From assembly GCF_004368405.1 (NCBI RefSeq), contig NZ_SBJH01000112.1, positions 1 through 64,000 on the forward strand: a DNA stretch of 64,000 nucleotides, in the 5' to 3' direction. The position numbers and the translations under genes are program-made. Origin of the DNA: Olivibacter sp. XZL3. Its GTDB lineage: Bacteria; Bacteroidota; Bacteroidia; Sphingobacteriales; Sphingobacteriaceae. The notes under the pieces were generated by a model. That model was not told where the DNA came from and did not search any database. It saw only the letters and a list, made by a program, of their open reading frames with translations. Of the stretch, positions 5,857-59,709 are shown piece by piece; the stretch's first letter is position 1, and every line of letters begins with the position of its first letter.

Positions 5857-6216
5857 AGAAACTCAATCACTTTTAGCATAAATTCCATTGCTTTAATACT
5901 AACCACGTTCGGGTTTGGAGTAAAGTCGTTTAGCTTTATAATAAAATCAATTGAGTTTAGGATAAAGTCAATTGAGATTGACTTCATGTTTGTTGGATTT
6001 ATACTAGAGATGCACCTAGCTATCATAAAGTTGTCCAGCTTTGCGTCAAAGGCAATTGGATTTGTGTCAATGTTATATGGGTTTGTTGTAAAAACAACCG
6101 AGCTTACAACAAAGTTTTATTCTTTATAATAAAAGCGTTTGTAATTGTGGTAAAGTCCAGTGGAATTATTATAAAGTTGATCGGGTTTGCAATAAAGTCG
6201 ATTGGGTTTAGAATAA
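5857..6216. repeat. Degenerate tandem array of 21-base repeats (about 17 units)
   Basis: A unit close to ATAAAGTCAATTGAGTTTAGG recurs with a strict 21-base period; the best copies start near 5920, 5941, 5962, 6025 and 6194. Because 21 is a multiple of 3, the plus strand reads as heptapeptides of the form x-K-S-I-x-F-x (INSIALI, VKSFSFI, IKSIEFR, IKSIEID, IKLSSFA, SKAIGFV). After a TAA at 6127-6129 the array goes on in another frame (VKSSGII, IKLIGFA, IKSIGFR). The minus strand is also partly open. No good start or ribosome site supports a protein on either strand, so I treat it as a non-coding minisatellite between the Fur remnant and the heme oxygenase. Confidence 0.7.
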
Positions 6217-6494
6217 CACCAAACAAACCTACTCCAGTGCCGGTTGAAAAATATAATAAGTCAATGGTATTTAATCCAAAAGCATTTGAAATCGTAACGA
6301 AAGTGAACAGCATAGCGACGACTATTTAATAGAAATTTGCCGAAGCCGTTATTCTTGTCCGGCGAAATTGATACAAAATCAAGCGGATTGCATACAGACT
6401 TTGTTTTCAAATTTTACAATCTTTGTTAGGCTTGATCGTTAAACACTATAAAACGAAGACCAGATCAAGCACCAAATACAGTAATAATAAAAAT

Positions 6495-7055
6495 ATGCTA
6501 AGTACCAAAATAAAAGAAGCTACAAAACAACCGCACCAACAATTAGAGGGTGTCGTTGTCAGAAAATTAAAAGCAATCGATAGCGACAAAGACTACGCGG
6601 AATTTCTTAAATTTTTCTATGCATACTTTAATGCAGTAGAAAATGCAATTAAGCCCTATATTACCATATCGGTTTTACCCGATTACCAAGAAAGAAGAAA
6701 TTCTTCCTTTATAAAAAAGGACATCGAAGCATTAGGAGAAAATATTGATCAGCTGCCGGAAGTAGAAGCGCCTGTCATAACGACCGTTCAGGAAGCTTTG
6801 GGCGCTTTGTATGTGCTGGAGGGTTCTATTATGGGCGGAAGTATCATCGTGAAAATGCTTGAAAAAATTGGGATAACAAGAGGAACTTCTTTCTTTTCAG
6901 GATACGGAGAGGAAACCGGCAAAAAATGGAGTACATTCGTAAACGTCTTAAATAAACATGCAACGAACGCAGCAGCAGAAGAGCAGGCCATTAAAGCGGC
7001 AGGAAGCACCTTTGCGTTATTCGGAAAAGCTTTTGAAAACGCAGAAGTTGCATAA
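6495..7055 (+). CDS. Biliverdin-producing heme oxygenase
   Basis: A 186-residue all-helical protein of the bacterial heme oxygenase family. These cytoplasmic enzymes open heme to biliverdin, CO and Fe2+. The N-terminal TKQPHQQLE supplies the probable proximal heme ligand (His14). The distal helix ALYVLEGSIMGGSII has the conserved Gly-rich kink. ATG at 6495 is chosen over an upstream TTG because the family motif starts right after it and it is preceded by an A-rich leader. It stands alone, about 1 kb after the HmuY-like/S41 lipoprotein run, and would supply the iron-release step for heme taken up by that locus. Confidence 0.85.
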   Translation: MLSTKIKEATKQPHQQLEGVVVRKLKAIDSDKDYAEFLKFFYAYFNAVENAIKPYITISVLPDYQERRNSSFIKKDIEALGENIDQLPEVEAPVITTVQEALGALYVLEGSIMGGSIIVKMLEKIGITRGTSFFSGYGEETGKKWSTFVNVLNKHATNAAAEEQAIKAAGSTFALFGKAFENAEVA

Positions 7056-7087
7056 AAGGTAAATGATTTCACGGTTGATTTAGCAAA

Positions 7088-7108
7088 AGGCCGAATTTTT
7101 TTCGGCCT
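7088..7108. terminator. Hairpin between convergent genes
   Basis: AGGCCGAA (7088-7095) pairs with TTCGGCCT (7101-7108) around a 5-T loop, followed on the plus strand by CTTTG. It lies between the converging heme oxygenase and desaturase genes and may serve both strands. The T tract is short. Confidence 0.5.
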
Positions 7109-7145
7109 CTTTGCATCAAAACGTTTATTTAATGATAACGTTCTA

Positions 7146-8141
7146 TTACTCGATGTGAGCGGGTGACTTGGTTGAAGTTGACTTTGTTTTTCCTCGATTG
7201 TCGCGTGCCATTCTTGAATAAAGCGATAAGTTCCGGTCGAAGATAAACCTTAACAATAAACGCGTATAGGACTTGTGGGATCCGAGCGAATCGTAATAAG
7301 GGCTAGCAATTTGCTTAATTTTAGGCAAATTATTCCACGGAATAGAAGGAAAATCGTGGTGCTCGTTATGGTAGCCTACGTTTAAATTAACGACATTCAA
7401 TACACCATAATAGCTTTTCGTCTCCTGGTCCTCATCATGCGTTAAAAAATGTTCCTGAATCCAACGTGCTCCAAGTGGGTGTAGTCCTACCGAGAAAAAG
7501 AAACTGGCAGTTAAATAGGCGATCGCCTTCCATTGCCAGAAATAAAAGATTAGTCCCATAAACGCAAACTGCACCACATAGTTTAGAATGACCCATTTGT
7601 CGAACATTTTAATCTCTTTGCTCATTCGTCCCAAACGGGATGCCTGAACAATGGGATATAAAAGTAACCATAGCGCTTTTCCTATAGTAGAATTGTTAAC
7701 CAGCTTCGCTTCCCATTCACTCGGCATATCGGCATCTAGTTCTTCGATCCCTTGGAACGCATGGTGCTTGAGATGATATTTTTGAAAAGAAACGGAACTT
7801 GGAAACACCAAGGGTAAATTAGCAAAAATCCCTGAGAGCGTATTGAGTACCCTGTTTTTAAAAATCAAGTTATGTGAGCATTCGTGTATACAAATGAATA
7901 AGGTGTGGCACGCAAATGCGCCGATCAAATAAGCACAAGGGACAATAAACCACCATGATTCGTCATATAAAATCCACGACATGGCGATTTGTATACCCAC
8001 ACACAATACAATGACCAGAAAAGTGTAAGGATTTCTGCCTATTAAATGTCGGATTTCGGGATGATTAGATATGATCTCCCGTGTTCTAAGTTTATGTGGC
8101 TCGCACTTTTCCGACCAACTAAAGCTCTTTTTCTTATTCAT
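7146..8141 (-). CDS. Sphingolipid delta-4 desaturase-like membrane desaturase (DEGS1 family)
   Basis: A 331-residue membrane di-iron desaturase. The three His boxes are HECSH (86-90), HLKHH (123-127) and HNEHH (258-262). The resemblance is specifically to dihydroceramide delta-4 desaturases: the N-terminal FSWSEKCEPHKLRTREI matches the Lipid_DES leader domain of DEGS1 (F.W.....PH..RR.EI), and NVGYHNEHHDFPSIPW, SYYGVLN and a C-terminal SLYSRM also match DEGS1. Two hydrophobic pairs flank the boxes. Bacteroidota of this group make sphingolipids, so the probable reaction is introducing the 4,5-trans double bond into a dihydroceramide-type lipid. Substrate is inferred. It is monocistronic, with 143 bases to the next gene. 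Confidence 0.75.
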   Translation of the reverse strand: MNKKKSFSWSEKCEPHKLRTREIISNHPEIRHLIGRNPYTFLVIVLCVGIQIAMSWILYDESWWFIVPCAYLIGAFACHTLFICIHECSHNLIFKNRVLNTLSGIFANLPLVFPSSVSFQKYHLKHHAFQGIEELDADMPSEWEAKLVNNSTIGKALWLLLYPIVQASRLGRMSKEIKMFDKWVILNYVVQFAFMGLIFYFWQWKAIAYLTASFFFSVGLHPLGARWIQEHFLTHDEDQETKSYYGVLNVVNLNVGYHNEHHDFPSIPWNNLPKIKQIASPYYDSLGSHKSYTRLLLRFIFDRNLSLYSRMARDNRGKTKSTSTKSPAHIE

Positions 8142-8283
8142 TATACAAGTTAGGATGTTGTTGTAATTAACGTGAAAGATATTTGAAAAGTATTAGAAAT
8201 GCAATTTTTTTGTAAAAATATCTACAAAAAAAATAGTCGCCCACCAATCGTGTCAGCAGTCGATCCCTCGGCGTCCGTCGACC

Positions 8284-9750
8284 TCATTTTTTATTCAGTA
8301 CGTCGGCGCTTTCTTCTGCAGTGATATCATCCGTTTTTTCACGGTTTCTGTTCCGTAACATGTAAATGAGACTTGATTTTTGCGGTAGTCGCAACGCGGG
8401 AATAATAGCGAGCAGAATAATAATGGCTGTGATTAAAAAGCTATTTCGCAGGGCATAGTGCTCTGCTACCTGCTCTTGAAATTGTTGCGCCAGGTAGTTG
8501 TCGTAAATTAAGGTGTGTATAACGGCGCTTACTGCGATCCCTATAGAACCACCCACCTGCAGAAACAAGCTGTTTAAGGCTGTAGCGGTTTGCGTTTGGC
8601 TTGGCTTAACGGCATTTAAGAGCGCTGTCGAAACAGGCGCCACCAATAAACTCATGCCGAGCCCTCTGACAGCCATGGTGAATAGGATGAACCAAATGGA
8701 CACGCCGATATCGATCCTGGCAAACATAAAAAAAGAGATGGAGACAATCAATATGCCTGCTATTGATATATTCCGAATCATTCCTTTATCCGCTAGCCTT
8801 CCAGACAAAGGCCTGCTGACTAACATGATCAACGCGTTCGGCAACATTAATAGGCCGGACTCTATTTCCGTATAGCCCAATAAGCCCTGAAGCAAAAAGG
8901 GCAAAAAGAACATACCTCCATAGAGGGCTAACGACCGTATGATGGTGATTGTTGCTGCTACGTTGAACTGCGCGATACGGAATACTTCCAAATCCAGTAG
9001 GGATTGCGGTTTTCTGGCGGATTTTATGAAGAAGTAGAGCATCAACAGCGTAATCGCAAGGCCAAGTAAAAAAGAGATAGATAGCAATCCTTCTCTGCCG
9101 ATCACGGAAATGGTATATTGTAAAGCAATGATAAAAACGGAGAAGTAAGCGAAGCCCTGCATGTCGAATTTAGCCTCTTTATCGACTTTTCGTTTTAAGA
9201 AGTTCAAATAACGTACCGCGAATAAGATCGTTAAGGCACCGATCGGAATATTGATATAGAAAATTGATTCCCAACCCAGGTAATGCGTTAGTACGCCGCC
9301 AAGCGTAGGCCCTAAAGCCGGCCCCATTACATTTCCCATTCCCCACCAGCCAATAGCGGTTCCTCGCTCTTCTTTCGGAAACGTTTCACTTAGAATTGCC
9401 AGCGAAGTGGGCGATAAAGATCCGCCACCTATAGCCTGTATGACGCGAGAAAGAACCAACATATCTAGATTGACAGAAAGGCTGCACAATAATGACCCGG
9501 CCGTGAAGATGACAATACTCCCTAGAAATAGATGATAGTAGCCGAAACGCCTTTTTAACCAATTTGTTAAGGGAATAAAAAGCGAAAACGAAATCATATA
9601 AGCGGTAATTACCCATTCGATCTGATTAAGGTCTGCATCGAAATCATTTCGCATTACCGGTAAAGAGACATTAACAATGCTGCTGTCAATTGCAGCCATA
9701 GAGGTTGCCATCATTAACGTAACCAGCACAAAAGACTTGTTTATTAACAT
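8284..9750 (-). CDS. DHA2-family (EmrB/QacA) 14-TM drug efflux MFS transporter
   Basis: A 488-residue polytopic protein from ATG 9750; an upstream TTG is in frame but lies outside the conserved start. Motif D1 of DHA2 proteins is visible (AAIDSSIVNVSLPVM), as are motif A (LTNWLKRRFGYYHLF) and motif C (GWWGMGNVMGPALGPTLGG). These indicate proton-driven export of drugs or lipophilic compounds across the inner membrane. A hydrophilic C-terminal tail follows the last helix. No adaptor or TolC gene is adjacent, so it may work alone or with distant partners. Confidence 0.85.
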   Translation of the reverse strand: MLINKSFVLVTLMMATSMAAIDSSIVNVSLPVMRNDFDADLNQIEWVITAYMISFSLFIPLTNWLKRRFGYYHLFLGSIVIFTAGSLLCSLSVNLDMLVLSRVIQAIGGGSLSPTSLAILSETFPKEERGTAIGWWGMGNVMGPALGPTLGGVLTHYLGWESIFYINIPIGALTILFAVRYLNFLKRKVDKEAKFDMQGFAYFSVFIIALQYTISVIGREGLLSISFLLGLAITLLMLYFFIKSARKPQSLLDLEVFRIAQFNVAATITIIRSLALYGGMFFLPFLLQGLLGYTEIESGLLMLPNALIMLVSRPLSGRLADKGMIRNISIAGILIVSISFFMFARIDIGVSIWFILFTMAVRGLGMSLLVAPVSTALLNAVKPSQTQTATALNSLFLQVGGSIGIAVSAVIHTLIYDNYLAQQFQEQVAEHYALRNSFLITAIIILLAIIPALRLPQKSSLIYMLRNRNREKTDDITAEESADVLNKK

Positions 9751-54956: not shown

Positions 54957-55039
54957 GCCCGGGTGGCGAAATTGGTAAACGTTGCGGTCTCAGAAGCCGT
55001 TGAGCTTGGCTCTTGAGGGTTCGAGTCCCTCCTCGGGCA
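54957..55039 (+). tRNA. tRNA-Leu (anticodon CAG)
   Basis: Cloverleaf with a long variable arm: acceptor GCCCGGG pairs with CTCGGGC (one G-U), D arm GTGGCGAAATTGGTAAAC, anticodon CAG at 54991-54993 in loop CTCAGAA, T arm GGTTCGAGTCC. CCA is not encoded. Confidence 0.93.
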
Positions 55040-55197
55040 CATAGGCAAGGTTGTAAACGATAGTTTGCAACCTTTCTCGTTTTATTAAGGCGAGTTTGGC
55101 GTATAAACGCGGCTTTTCTTTCGGTACCACTGAATCTAAACTACACATTTACATTTTCCTGACAGATTTATTCCGCTCTGGCGAGTATTTTTGTGCC

Positions 55198-55536
55198 ATG
55201 TTGCATTTTTTTCGAGGCACCGCTTTCCGTTATGTATTTAGTTCGCTTTTAATTGCTCTTTTTGCTTTAAAAACGGCAGGAATTGTCTTCACTTACCATA
55301 CGAGTAAAGATGCCAGCGCCTTCAAAGCGTACGAGGATAATGAAAAACGGGAAAAGGGAGAACGAAAAGATGCAGGTGACCGATATAAATCCAACGATTT
55401 CCTACAAGTTGATGTCATCCATAATGTCGGTCTTATAGAAAAAGACCTGGTAAGAAAACGCAGTCTGGGCGCTTTTTTTTATCATTTTTGCCATATTGAT
55501 GCTGTACCCTCGCCGCCTCCGGATAAAATAGTCTAG
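55198..55536 (+). CDS. Small membrane-anchored protein of unknown function
   Basis: A 112-residue protein from ATG 55198: one N-terminal membrane helix (SSLLIALFALKTAGIVFTY), a charged middle (EDNEKREKGERKD) and a C-terminal HCHI.AVPSPPPD segment with His/Cys/Pro. Not recognised. The longer frame from 55096 is less likely because it overlaps the tRNA-downstream region and lacks a start site. A TAnnTTTG match (55186-55193) lies too close to the ATG to be trusted. Confidence 0.45.
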   Translation: MLHFFRGTAFRYVFSSLLIALFALKTAGIVFTYHTSKDASAFKAYEDNEKREKGERKDAGDRYKSNDFLQVDVIHNVGLIEKDLVRKRSLGAFFYHFCHIDAVPSPPPDKIV

Positions 55537-55627: not shown

Positions 55628-56635
55628 ATGAAAAAGAAACACGCGGAGTCTTCGCTTACTCCTTTGCAAAGGTTAATAGGAATATTACATCCAGAGCGGA
55701 AGACCATCAATTATATTTTTTTATACGCTATTATTATAGGCGTTTTCAGTTTAACGATTCCACTTGGAATCACAGCTGTATTCAATTTACTCAGCAATGG
55801 AGCGATGTATAGTTCTACCTATATTCTCATTGTCATTGTGCTCTTTGCGGTGTCGTTAGGCGGCATCGCATTGATTGGACAACTCAGCTTAGTGGAATAT
55901 CTCGAACAGAAAATCTTCCTCAAATACTCCATTGAATTTGCCTATCGGCTGCCTAGGATCAAGCGCTCGGAGCTGGAAGGCGAGAATTTAGTGGAATTAG
56001 TGAATCGTTTTTTTGATGTGATCGTGATCCAGAAAGGAATCATCAAACTGCTCATCGACATCATTGCTGCTGTGGTCACCATTTTCTTTAGCGTGATCTT
56101 ACTTTCCTTTTACCACCCGGTTTTTTTAAGCTTTGGGTTGGTCATCATTATTGCCGTTGCCGTAATTATCGCGGTCTATTACCAGCGCGGTTTATCAAGC
56201 AGCATTGAAGAGTCGCAACATAAATACGAGAACGTAGCTTATTTAGAGGGAGTGGCAAAAAACATCGATGCGTATCGTGGAAATAAAGAGATGATGAAGA
56301 AAGTCATTTCTGATACCGATGCTATCACCAGCAAGTACTTGGCATCCAGAAATAGTCATTTCAGAATATTGAAGCGGTTTTTCGCCGGATCGGTAGTGAT
56401 ACGGACGCTCTTATTCGGTTTGATGCTGTTCTTGGGTTCCTATTTTGTAATTGAAAGAGAAATGACCTTCGGTCAATTTGTGGCTGCAGAAGTAGTGGTT
56501 GTACAAATAGGATATGCAGTAGAAAAATTAATGACAAATCTCGACACAATTTTTGACATGTTAACTGGAACAGTGAAACTTGCAGCGGTGACGGATTTGG
56601 AAATGGAAGAGGAGGCCATTGATTATGGGAAATAA
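55628..56635 (+). CDS. ABC exporter membrane domain without ATPase domain
   Basis: A 335-residue protein covering exactly one ABC type-1 exporter membrane domain: six helices (from INYIFLYAIIIGVFSLTIPLG to FGQFVAAEVVVVQIGYAVEK) and the helical linker ending TGTVKLAAVTDLE. It then stops, with no Walker A, signature or Walker B motif, and HlyD begins inside its last codons. It is thus a clean membrane-only form, not a frameshift. It may need an ATPase encoded elsewhere or work as a scaffold. First of three secretion-type genes. Confidence 0.75.
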   Translation: MKKKHAESSLTPLQRLIGILHPERKTINYIFLYAIIIGVFSLTIPLGITAVFNLLSNGAMYSSTYILIVIVLFAVSLGGIALIGQLSLVEYLEQKIFLKYSIEFAYRLPRIKRSELEGENLVELVNRFFDVIVIQKGIIKLLIDIIAAVVTIFFSVILLSFYHPVFLSFGLVIIIAVAVIIAVYYQRGLSSSIEESQHKYENVAYLEGVAKNIDAYRGNKEMMKKVISDTDAITSKYLASRNSHFRILKRFFAGSVVIRTLLFGLMLFLGSYFVIEREMTFGQFVAAEVVVVQIGYAVEKLMTNLDTIFDMLTGTVKLAAVTDLEMEEEAIDYGK

Positions 56636-57971
56636 AATTGTTCTGGAGAAGTCGATTCCATGGGAGGGACTGTCGACCGAAGGACGTGCAGGGCTTTTGA
56701 AAATCAAAGGTATATTACGATTAGGACGTATCGTTTATAGCGCAATAATTGTGTTCGTGATCACGCTTTTTCTGCCGTGGCGACAAACGATTCCTGGTAA
56801 AGGATCTGTGACTGCTTTGCGGCCGGAGGATCGCCCACAAACCGTTCAAAACCAGATTGGTGGTCGCATCGAGCGCTGGGCTGTTAAAGAAGGAGACGAA
56901 GTACAGCAAGGCGATACACTTTTGGTTATTTCAGAGACCACCTCATCTTATTTTGACCCTGAATTGCCCATTCGCCTACGTGAGCAGCTGCTCGCGAAAA
57001 AGAACAGCGAACAAGCGGCTGATCAAAAAATGACAGCCACCAAAGCGCAGATAGAAGCGTTAACTTCGGGGTTACGTTATCAATTGGAGGCTGCAAAAAA
57101 CAAAGTGATCCAGTCTCAGAACCTCGTTAAAATCGATAGCGCAGATCTCGTTGCCGTCGACAGCTTCTATAGAACGAGTGTAGCGCGCTTGAAACGCTAT
57201 GAAGAAGGCTACAAAAACGGACTTTTTTCGCTTACTGATATCGAAACCAGGCGGCTGAATTTGCAGAATGACCAAGCAAAAGTGATCAGCGCTGAAAATA
57301 AACTAACTAACTCCAGACAAGCGCTGATGAATGCGGTTATTGACCTAGATAACATCAAAGCAAAATACAGCGAAGCGCTTGCCAAAGCACAATCTGATTT
57401 AGGAACCGCTCTGTCCAGTAAGGCTTCTGCGGAGGGTGATATTGCTAAACTACGCAATGAGATTGCCAACATTGACATTCGGCGTAGCCTATATGTGGTA
57501 AGGGCTCCTCAAAGTGGCTACGTAGTGAAGACCCTTAAGGCAGGTATAGGAGAAAACGTCAAGGAAGGCGAGTCTATTGCTACGTTGCAACCCAAAACGC
57601 CGATGATCGCCGCGGAATTGTATGTGGACGCCATGGATGTACCATTGATTACGAAGGGAAATGATGTCCGTCTCCAATTTGAGGGTTGGCCTTCCGTGCA
57701 ATTTTCGGGTTGGCCCTCCGTAGCTGTTGGGACTTTTGCTGGTGAAGTGGCCGTAATCGATCGCGTAAACAGTGCCAATGGAAAATACCGCTTATTGATC
57801 CGGCCAATGCTGCCCGTTCCGGAAAAGGATGAGCCATGGCCAGAGAAGTTGCGACTTGGATCGGGCGTATATGGGCGGGTAATCTTACGGTCCGTACCAG
57901 TATGGTATGAAATATGGCGGCAATTAAACGCTTTTCCGCCGAACCTGGAAAGAGAACCAAAAGGCGAATAA
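56625..57971 (+). CDS. HlyD-family adaptor (membrane fusion protein)
   Basis: A 448-residue type-1-secretion adaptor from ATG 56625, overlapping the upstream stop by 11 bases. One membrane helix (IVYSAIIVFVITLFLPW), a biotinyl-lipoyl-like barrel (IGGRIERWAVKEGDEVQQGD and SGYVVKTLKAGIGENVKEG), a long coiled coil (about 130-300) and a C-terminal beta domain. Bridges the inner-membrane protein and TolC. Confidence 0.85.
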   Translation: MGNKIVLEKSIPWEGLSTEGRAGLLKIKGILRLGRIVYSAIIVFVITLFLPWRQTIPGKGSVTALRPEDRPQTVQNQIGGRIERWAVKEGDEVQQGDTLLVISETTSSYFDPELPIRLREQLLAKKNSEQAADQKMTATKAQIEALTSGLRYQLEAAKNKVIQSQNLVKIDSADLVAVDSFYRTSVARLKRYEEGYKNGLFSLTDIETRRLNLQNDQAKVISAENKLTNSRQALMNAVIDLDNIKAKYSEALAKAQSDLGTALSSKASAEGDIAKLRNEIANIDIRRSLYVVRAPQSGYVVKTLKAGIGENVKEGESIATLQPKTPMIAAELYVDAMDVPLITKGNDVRLQFEGWPSVQFSGWPSVAVGTFAGEVAVIDRVNSANGKYRLLIRPMLPVPEKDEPWPEKLRLGSGVYGRVILRSVPVWYEIWRQLNAFPPNLEREPKGE

Positions 57972-57975
57972 GAAC

Positions 57976-59418
57976 ATGGTAGGAAAAAAAAGATTTGCCC
58001 TGCTTATGGCTTTTTGTTTTTGGACAATTGCAGCGGCACAGGAAAATATAAACAGCAGGGAACGTAAAGAATTCAAGTTGGAGGATCTAGAAGATTTACT
58101 GATGGCCAATCATCCCGTGGTTAAACAAGCCCAGTTATTAAGCGAAACGGCGCAAGCCGAAATAGCGCAGGCTCGAGGCAAGTTTGACCCGACCTTAAAA
58201 GCTGCTTTCAACAATAAATATTTCGGTAATACCGATTACTATAACCATTGGAACAGTGAATTGAAAATCCCCGTATGGCTTGCTGGTGCAGACCTGAAAG
58301 TTGCTTATGATCGGAATGTAGGGACCTATACCAATCCGGAGACTACCACATCCACTGCAGGCTTGTCGGGCGTGGGGATCAGCATTCCTTTAGGGCAGGG
58401 TTTGCTGATCGACAACCGCCGCAATACGGTGTTACAAGCGAAGGCGATGTTGGGGTATGCGGAGGCGGAACAGGTGAAGCAAATAAACGCCATCTGGTTT
58501 GCAGCAGTAAAAGATTATTGGAGCTGGTACTATGCCTACCGTCAATACGAATTACTCCGAGAAGGTGTTCAATTGGCAGAAAAACGCTTTGCTGCTATTC
58601 GCATGCAAACAGTTTTAGGAGATAAGCCGACTATTGATTCCGTGGAGGCCTCCATCACGGTGCAGGAGCGAAAAATTCAGTTGGAGAAACACATAATTCA
58701 ATTGAGAAACAGCCGTTTGCTACTTTCTAATCATTTATGGAACGAACAGCAGCAGCCCATGGAACTGCCCGATTATGCGATCCCTTCCAGCGTTGACAGC
58801 ACACAACTCGATCCAAATCCAATACTACTGGATAGCCTCATTAGGCAGGCCGATGACAAACACCCAGAATTGCTAAAATTGGAAAGCAAAGGTATACAGT
58901 TGAACATAGAAGAACGTTATCGAAAGGAGATGCTGAAGCCGAAAATAAATGTTTCGGGAACGTTGTTATCTAGTCGTAGGAATTTCAATGAATATATACC
59001 GCACTACTATGATTTTAATTGGAGCAACTATAAGCTTGGATTGGAATTTGCGTTCCCGCTTTTCCTGCGGGCAGAGCGAGGGAAGTTGAAAGAAGTAAGA
59101 CTTAAAAAAGAACAGTTATTGTACGACCAGCTCTTAACAAATAGGAATATCCAAAACGATATTATGACGAAATACAACGATCTCCATGCGTATAGCAACC
59201 AGCTAAAATTACAGGTCTTAAGTACTCATAATCAGCAAATACTATTGAAAGGTGAATTGCAGAAATTCGAACTTGGGGAAAGCACTCTTTTTATGATAAA
59301 CAGCAGGGAGAGTAAATTAATTGACATGAAACTAAAACAGGAAGACCTTATTGTAAGCTATAACAAAGCACTGGCCGAACTATACTATAAAGCGGGTAGC
59401 CGTATGCCCGGAGGCTAG
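57976..59418 (+). CDS. TolC-family outer membrane protein
   Basis: A 480-residue protein with signal peptide (cleavage near AAA-QE). TolC repeats of long helices: DLLMANHPVVKQAQLLSETA and KHPELLKLESKGIQLNIEER. Forms the outer-membrane tunnel for the preceding adaptor, four bases upstream. Confidence 0.85.
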   Translation: MVGKKRFALLMAFCFWTIAAAQENINSRERKEFKLEDLEDLLMANHPVVKQAQLLSETAQAEIAQARGKFDPTLKAAFNNKYFGNTDYYNHWNSELKIPVWLAGADLKVAYDRNVGTYTNPETTTSTAGLSGVGISIPLGQGLLIDNRRNTVLQAKAMLGYAEAEQVKQINAIWFAAVKDYWSWYYAYRQYELLREGVQLAEKRFAAIRMQTVLGDKPTIDSVEASITVQERKIQLEKHIIQLRNSRLLLSNHLWNEQQQPMELPDYAIPSSVDSTQLDPNPILLDSLIRQADDKHPELLKLESKGIQLNIEERYRKEMLKPKINVSGTLLSSRRNFNEYIPHYYDFNWSNYKLGLEFAFPLFLRAERGKLKEVRLKKEQLLYDQLLTNRNIQNDIMTKYNDLHAYSNQLKLQVLSTHNQQILLKGELQKFELGESTLFMINSRESKLIDMKLKQEDLIVSYNKALAELYYKAGSRMPGG

Positions 59419-59530: not shown

Positions 59531-59613
59531 GCGGAAGTGGCGAAATTGGTAGACGCACCATCTTGAGGGGGTGGCGCCCTAAGGGCGTGGCAGTTCGAAT
59601 CTGCTCTTCCGCA
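59531..59613 (+). tRNA. tRNA-Leu (anticodon GAG)
   Basis: Acceptor GCGGAAG pairs with CTTCCGC; anticodon stem CCATC/GGTGG (one U-G); loop TTGAGGG with GAG at 59565-59567; long variable arm GCGCCCTAAGGGCGT; T arm CAGTTCGAATCTG. CCA is not encoded. Confidence 0.93.
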
Positions 59614-59709
59614 CAATAACATGGAAGCTCTTGCTTTCGCAAGAGCTTCCGTTGTTTTAAAGTAGGTGAAGTTTTGCTTGGGGGGCTAGCAAACAATTTT
59701 GATAAAAGT

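Follow-up and report, generated by a model that had tools for sequence, protein, structure and literature searches.

The ABC membrane domain of the operon and its missing ATPase

The window analyzed here is a stretch of 64,000 nucleotides from the genome of Olivibacter sp. XZL3 (Sphingobacteriaceae; assembly GCF_004368405.1, contig NZ_SBJH01000112.1, positions 1 to 64,000 of the forward strand). Between positions 55,628 and 59,418 it holds a compact operon of three genes on the + strand (Table 1). The first codes for the membrane domain of an ATP-binding cassette (ABC) exporter, the second for an adaptor of the HlyD type and the third for a channel of the TolC type. A pair of tRNA-Leu genes brackets the operon and a terminator-like stem follows each of them; the stems are consensus matches only, eight of which were observed against 4.5 expected in shuffled sequences. 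The product of the first gene matches PF00664 (ABC_membrane) at 1e-10, over the cutoff, along residues 29 to 289, and no ATPase family of Pfam at E <= 1. An earlier note on this DNA, made from its letters, had described the ATPase as cleanly absent and had placed the end of the first gene at the junction between the membrane domain and the nucleotide-binding domain (NBD); indeed, the open reading frame (ORF) ends at the point at which fused relatives switch from one domain to the other. The genome holds 41 matches to PF00005 (ABC-ATPase), and none of them lies on the contig of the window. Three features of HlyB-like type I secretion are present, namely the membrane domain of a type IV exporter and the HlyD- and TolC-type partners, and a further one, an NBD with Walker A and B motifs, signature and H-loop, is absent. 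The operon is a three-gene pump of soil bacteria in which the ABC membrane part is kept and the ATP-burning NBD is gone.

The adaptor is recognized by PF13437 and PF13533, the channel by PF02321, and both also match a TIGRFAM model below its cutoff (TIGR01843 and TIGR01844, respectively). The adaptor gene likely starts at the ATG at 56625, 9 bases 3′ of an AGGAGG motif, which we prefer over the TTG at 56619, the longer start in the ORF list. From this ATG, the gene overlaps the end of the first one by 11 bases, in agreement with the overlap seen in the earlier note. The three-part envelope conduit proposed there is also supported, in that the genes look like its inner-membrane part, its adaptor and its outer-membrane channel.

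Table 1. Features of the operon and of its borders in the window.
Feature	Positions	Strand	Evidence
ABC exporter membrane domain without NBD, 335 amino acids (aa), six transmembrane (TM) helices	55628..56635	+	PF00664, no ATPase family, AlphaFold2 model, HlyB fold match
AGGAGG within the first gene, possibly the ribosome-binding site for the adaptor	56610..56615	+	sequence; inference
HlyD-type periplasmic adaptor	56625..57971	+	HlyD_3 5.8e-12, Biotin_lipoyl_2 3.7e-10; TIGR01843 1.3e-22, below curated cutoff
TolC-type outer membrane channel (OEP)	57976..59418	+	PF02321 1.1e-36, two stretches
Small putative membrane protein, fast-evolving, uncertain operon member	55198..55536	+	weak matches at relatives' operons
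tRNA-Leu (cag), upstream border	54957..55040	+	
Terminator-like stem 3′ of the upstream tRNA	55047..55074	+	consensus match only
tRNA-Leu (gag), downstream border	59531..59614	+	

The NBD-less gene is conserved with its partners

In a sample of 399 genomes of the family, with at most five first-look candidates scored per genome, 157 genomes gave a match at E <= 1e-10. The absence of the ATPase is heritable: the NBD-less gene accounts for 95 matches in 92 of the 399 genomes, with at least 59% identity, open frames of 333–380 aa and no internal stops. The other matches, among those listed, show at most 43% identity and are fused, with frames from about 550 aa upwards, except in G068 (402 aa) and G166; the 343-aa frame of G166 runs off the end of its contig and was set aside as an NBD-less candidate. 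Relatives with and without the domain, for which the earlier note had suggested looking, both exist, the distant ones being fused and the close ones NBD-less. Also among the matches listed, 88 of the 92 NBD-less genomes show one family match at this threshold (the exceptions are G222, G317, G351 and G420), so that in most of them no fused sister half is seen. The closest named match to the membrane domain, at 84%, is from Olivibacter jilunii; four genomes of the same genus were in the set searched.

HlyD- and TolC-type genes, in this order, directly follow the NBD-less gene in all 24 named loci with flanks (Olivibacter, Sphingobacterium, Pedobacter, Mucilaginibacter and Nubsella). Two further families hold NBD-less members (L134 and L136), each with HlyD and TolC downstream. 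A frameshifted NBD downstream of the membrane gene is excluded, as HlyD is directly next in the 24 loci and in L134 and L136. For the membrane gene, the median ratio of non-synonymous to synonymous substitution rates (dN/dS) is 0.049 (29 pairs with dS < 2; the pairs overlap and are not independent, and some rows are near-copies), which indicates strong purifying selection. The three genes being together in every named locus, with the membrane gene under purifying selection, the operon is more than a chance arrangement. A deletion in one strain whose close relatives all keep the fused ATPase, the outcome that the earlier note had named as contrary to its claim, is not what we found; this, or a pseudogene, is excluded by the 92 genomes, the constant HlyD–TolC pair and the low dN/dS. 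In Sphingobacterium sp. CFCC 11742 (L044, positions 6968–8328) the HlyD frame is split in two ORFs of 253 and 193 aa, by a sequencing error or a real frameshift.

Catalytic motifs were probably lost before the domain

To describe the NBDs of the fused relatives, a motif table was made for 72 distinct fused frames, a subset of the fused matches, and eight control exporters from the genome of the window; its Q-loop column was disregarded because alignment gaps make it unreliable. Frames with a membrane-domain score of at least 400 bits (54 rows) are referred to as the crown, and 17 rows as basal; L048 is in neither group. The signature is found in none of the 54 crown NBDs, the H-loop His in a single one, and the Walker B Asp, the catalytic Glu and the His occur together in none (L015 and L021 keep two of the three). 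The Walker A lysine is kept in 52 of the 54. In 31 of the crown rows the Walker B pair reads E-D instead of D-E; as an acid is still present there, the loss of hydrolysis is a prediction. The complete Asp, Glu and His set is found in 13 of the 17 basal NBDs and the signature, under a lenient rule, in only 7, so that even the basal members are unusual; among the control exporters the figures are 7 of 8 and 8 of 8. The full catalytic set is also missing from basal L139, L151 and L152, which are on the tree described below, and from L170, which is not, so that decay has started more than once.

Of four motif-dead fused proteins checked, three (L046, L137 and L018, but not L048) still pass the Pfam cutoff for ABC ATPases, and motif-dead systems are for this reason probably annotated as ordinary ATP-driven transporters. 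In L048 (positions 5992–7611; Methylophilaceae, Pseudomonadota), whose place in the tree is unsure, no match to the ABC ATPase family is left in the NBD region, and Walker A is lost too. The motif-dead proteins nearest to the NBD-less clade (L009, L022, L112 and L137) are extended at the N terminus by about 150 residues, for which no Pfam match was found in L137.

A quick tree was computed from 94 rows, 24 of them NBD-less; identical rows were omitted, as were L009, L161, L164, L109, L126, L163 and L170, which are near-copies or, in one case, a fragment. This tree came with a warning that long branches join L048 to the controls; L048 and the controls were therefore left out of a second tree, built from the membrane domains of 55 chosen rows with bootstrap and Shimodaira–Hasegawa-like approximate likelihood ratio (SH-aLRT) supports. 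Here, a crown of 39 rows (26 motif-dead and 13 NBD-less) is a clade with support 100/100, with the basal members outside. The NBD-less rows make up a single clade (100/99) within the motif-dead one, and the dead fused L137 is their sister (100/97). The quick tree is concordant, with SH-aLRT values of 98 for its crown of 72 rows and 99 for the 24 NBD-less rows. Both trees put L134 and L136 with the main NBD-less clade, and independent losses of the NBD in their families were rejected. The nested position implies an order: by parsimony, the hydrolysis motifs probably went first, in an NBD that was still attached, and a single loss of the whole domain came after.

The descent of the NBD-less branch is well supported by the trees. 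Judged from the sequences, it is a conserved branch of a lineage with already motif-dead NBDs, related to type I secretion-like ABC tripartite pumps. The stages are living ones: basal members with the full catalytic set, a motif-dead crown that mostly keeps Walker A, and the NBD-less members in the five genera named above and in two more families.

Fold and membrane-embedded charged residues

An AlphaFold2 model of the membrane protein, made with 48 family rows, has a mean predicted local distance difference test score (pLDDT) of 87.8 and a predicted template modeling score (pTM) of 0.80. Over residues 9 to 332 it matches type IV exporters, with TmrAB (6rai_B, Z 27.5), HlyB (8dck_A, Z 27.2; root mean square deviation 2.6 over 322 residues) and PCAT1 (8vpa_A, Z 26.3) among the matches; a family profile, searched against PDB sequences, found ComA (9.9e-13) and PCAT1 (1.7e-9 and weaker). 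The model consists of six long helices from residue 12 on, with no TM0, and of short coupling-loop helices at residues 113–116 and 213–216.

Charged residues lie within the predicted membrane helices: K140 and D144 in TM3, R/K259 in TM5 and E288 in TM6. Counted on the tree rows, E288 is found in 24 of 24 NBD-less, 52 of 52 motif-dead and 12 of 13 basal members and in none of five canonical exporters. Position 144 is Asp in 23 of the 24 NBD-less rows, and Asp or Glu in 51 of 52 dead, 13 of 13 basal and one of five canonical rows; position 259 is Arg in 23 of 24 NBD-less rows, and Arg or Lys in 49 of 52 dead and 13 of 13 basal rows. Two residues set the NBD-less clade apart: E93 (23/24, versus 0/52 dead and 2/13 basal) and Q293 (23/24, versus 0/52 dead, 0/13 basal and 2/5 canonical). 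The most conserved segment of the clade is TM6. Coupling helix 1 has an entropy of 0.86 in the NBD-less clade, versus 0.84 for the whole domain (2.10 versus 1.53 in the dead clade); coupling helix 2 reaches 1.41 in the NBD-less clade, versus the same 0.84, and contains one inserted residue in the NBD-less rows shown.

Energy source of the exporter

The locus would code for a tripartite exporter, descended from an ATP-driven exporter of the type I secretion or peptidase-type ABC kind. Two copies of the membrane domain would form the inner-membrane part, which the adaptor would link to TolC. Transport would be independent of ATP and driven by an ion gradient, most likely of protons, which is the least certain step; the membrane-embedded D144, R259 and E288 would serve ion coupling, as in SbmA and in engineered LmrA and MsbA. 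In LmrA, a glutamate of TM6, E314, is reported to be needed for proton-coupled transport (PMC6155054, PMC2704374); export of ethidium with a pH gradient is reported for MsbA lacking its NBD (PMC4979069); and SbmA, a peptide transporter, is described as an importer that naturally has no NBD and is driven by protons, with a YddA-like ABC transporter as its presumed ancestor (PMC13316013).

Several observations weigh against ion coupling. Basal members whose catalytic set is complete also have E288 and the neighbouring charged residues, so that these residues may be structural, and ion coupling accordingly stays an inference. The coupling-loop region (helices 113–116 and 213–216) is kept, unlike in SbmA as reported, and with coupling helix 1 relatively conserved in the NBD-less clade a cytoplasmic partner could still dock. 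The likeness to LmrA and SbmA is one of description. Finally, among loci with long flanks, a cluster of TetR-type regulators adjoins 9 of the 14 motif-dead fused ones looked at (selected, not random) and none of the 30 that are NBD-less. With these points counted in, an ATP-free, secondary-active (ion-gradient) tripartite exporter still appears to be the most likely mechanism, its chance falling just short of even. A broader proposal, which we make tentatively, as possible but somewhat doubtful, is that the loci document how an ATP-driven exporter was turned, in nature and on a wide scale, into a tripartite one that needs no ATP, with all stages extant. If so, it would be, to our knowledge, the first ABC-fold pump to drive a HlyD–TolC conduit by an ion gradient.

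The membrane domain could instead be unpowered and serve HlyD–TolC as an anchor, a gate or a facilitated channel, with the cargo moving downhill or loaded from the periplasm. The loss of all NBD motifs would suit such a role, and the Walker A lysine retained by nearly all motif-dead relatives would fit movement that is nucleotide-gated, not nucleotide-driven, in them; as a precedent, a mutant of TAP (ABCB2/B3) is reported to act as a nucleotide-gated facilitator (PMC7756269). However, a conserved TM6 with an invariant glutamate and a near-invariant glutamine exceeds what a simple anchor would need, and we consider this explanation rather unlikely.

Less likely still, the membrane domain would stay ATP-driven by recruiting a stand-alone ABC ATPase whose gene lies elsewhere. 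The search for orphan ATPases suggested by the earlier note did find candidates, 23 stand-alone NBD frames in the genome, six of which have no adjoining multi-TM frame (by a crude hydropathy count, judged by eye), and the conserved coupling region of intracellular loop 1 (ICL1) would leave a place for such a partner. None of these frames, however, is closer to the lost domain than ordinary exporters are: with the NBD of L137 as reference, the nearest NBDs of the genome belong to fused exporters, eight in number, with E values from 2e-26 to 7e-21, and the best match among the stand-alone frames reaches only E 3e-14, at 28% identity. Nor is there a constant ATPase gene beside the operon; an ATPase-like frame is found in the flanks of 3 of the 24 named loci (L024, L025 and L045), with 543 aa and about 24% identity to the fused NBD. 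The single family match in most NBD-less genomes, among the matches listed, and the less conserved coupling helix 2 with its insertion also speak against borrowing. The hydrolysis motifs were gone while the NBD was still fused, none of the crown NBDs being intact; hydrolysis was apparently dispensable with the domain attached, which argues against a need to borrow it. Of the two options left by the earlier note, an unknown energy source or a borrowed ATPase, the second is the less supported. A truncated, non-functional remnant or an assembly error, at which the missing NBD might hint, is very improbable given the same architecture in 92 of 399 genomes, a dN/dS of about 0.05 and the HlyD and TolC genes at every named locus.

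Comparison with known transporters

With HlyB–HlyD–TolC, PCAT1 and ComA, the window protein shares the fold or profile of the membrane domain, and HlyD- and TolC-type partners stand here in one operon; it differs from them in having no NBD at all, and in that the catalytic motifs of its nearest fused relatives are destroyed. SbmA/BacA-like (SLiPT) transporters, as described, likewise have an ABC type IV membrane fold without an NBD, acidic membrane residues and a proposed full-ABC ancestry; SbmA is, however, an importer with TM0 helices and no coupling helices, and a HlyD or TolC partner is not mentioned in the part of its description available (PMC13316013). The window protein, without TM0 and with its coupling-loop helices retained, matches PF00664 and has motif-dead fused relatives. 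It does not match the SbmA/BacA Pfam family at E <= 1. The family profile matches 34 PDB sequences, which include no SbmA chain; none is among the 50 structural matches listed either, the latter absence having no bearing on kinship with SbmA. A counterpart to the glutamate ladder that lines the cavity of SbmA would have its candidates in the conserved E288, D144 and E93.

The truncated LmrA-MD and MsbA-MD are also exporter membrane domains without an NBD, for which proton-coupled transport via acidic membrane residues is reported (PMC6155054, PMC2704374, PMC4979069); they are laboratory truncations of single pumps, whereas the operon described here is natural, conserved and tripartite. An altered signature, catalytic Glu and H-loop in an NBD are likewise reported for TmrAB, TM287/288 and Pdr5, in which one site stays active (PMC7756269); here, in contrast, all 54 crown NBDs are degenerate, and most genomes with the NBD-less gene show one family member among the matches listed.

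In pumps of the EmrAB–TolC type, an adaptor and TolC likewise work with an inner-membrane protein that is driven by ions, but this protein is of the major facilitator type and not of the ABC fold. No description of the NBD-less or of the motif-dead family was recognized in our literature searches. It is debated whether ABC exporters run on ATP alone or on ion gradients as well, and studies of NBD-less exporters have dealt with laboratory truncations; here, evolution made the truncation and selection kept the product, with motif-intact and motif-dead relatives at hand for comparison.

Cargo and neighbouring genes

The TetR-type regulators that adjoin the fused relatives (L046, L135, L160–L164, L167 and L168; two members confirmed by Pfam) hint at small-molecule efflux there, and at small toxic molecules as cargo rather than a large protein; for the NBD-less systems the hint is at most indirect. 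As to an adjacent secreted-protein substrate, no neighbour beyond the three genes occurs in more than 11 of the 24 named loci, and the cargo gene may sit elsewhere. A conserved fourth gene was rejected on the same count, 11 of 24 being the figure for the next commonest neighbour cluster, and a defence role was set aside with no PADLOC hit at 0.01. The small protein encoded directly upstream of the operon has no Pfam family; weak matches to it, with 24–37% identity (E 1e-11 to 0.01), precede the operon in Olivibacter, in some Sphingobacterium and in one Mucilaginibacter.

In seven Sphingobacterium loci (L029–L035), related proteins of 156–174 aa are encoded on either side of the operon; one of them was tested and had no Pfam family. 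In G222 (L154 and L155) and in G351 (L156 and L157), two NBD-less operons on opposite strands, 22–24 kb apart, flank a block. On the L154 side there are a gene for a spike of the phage or type VI secretion system (T6SS) type and a gene with a GH-E nuclease domain, and the same spike-gene cluster is found in L156.

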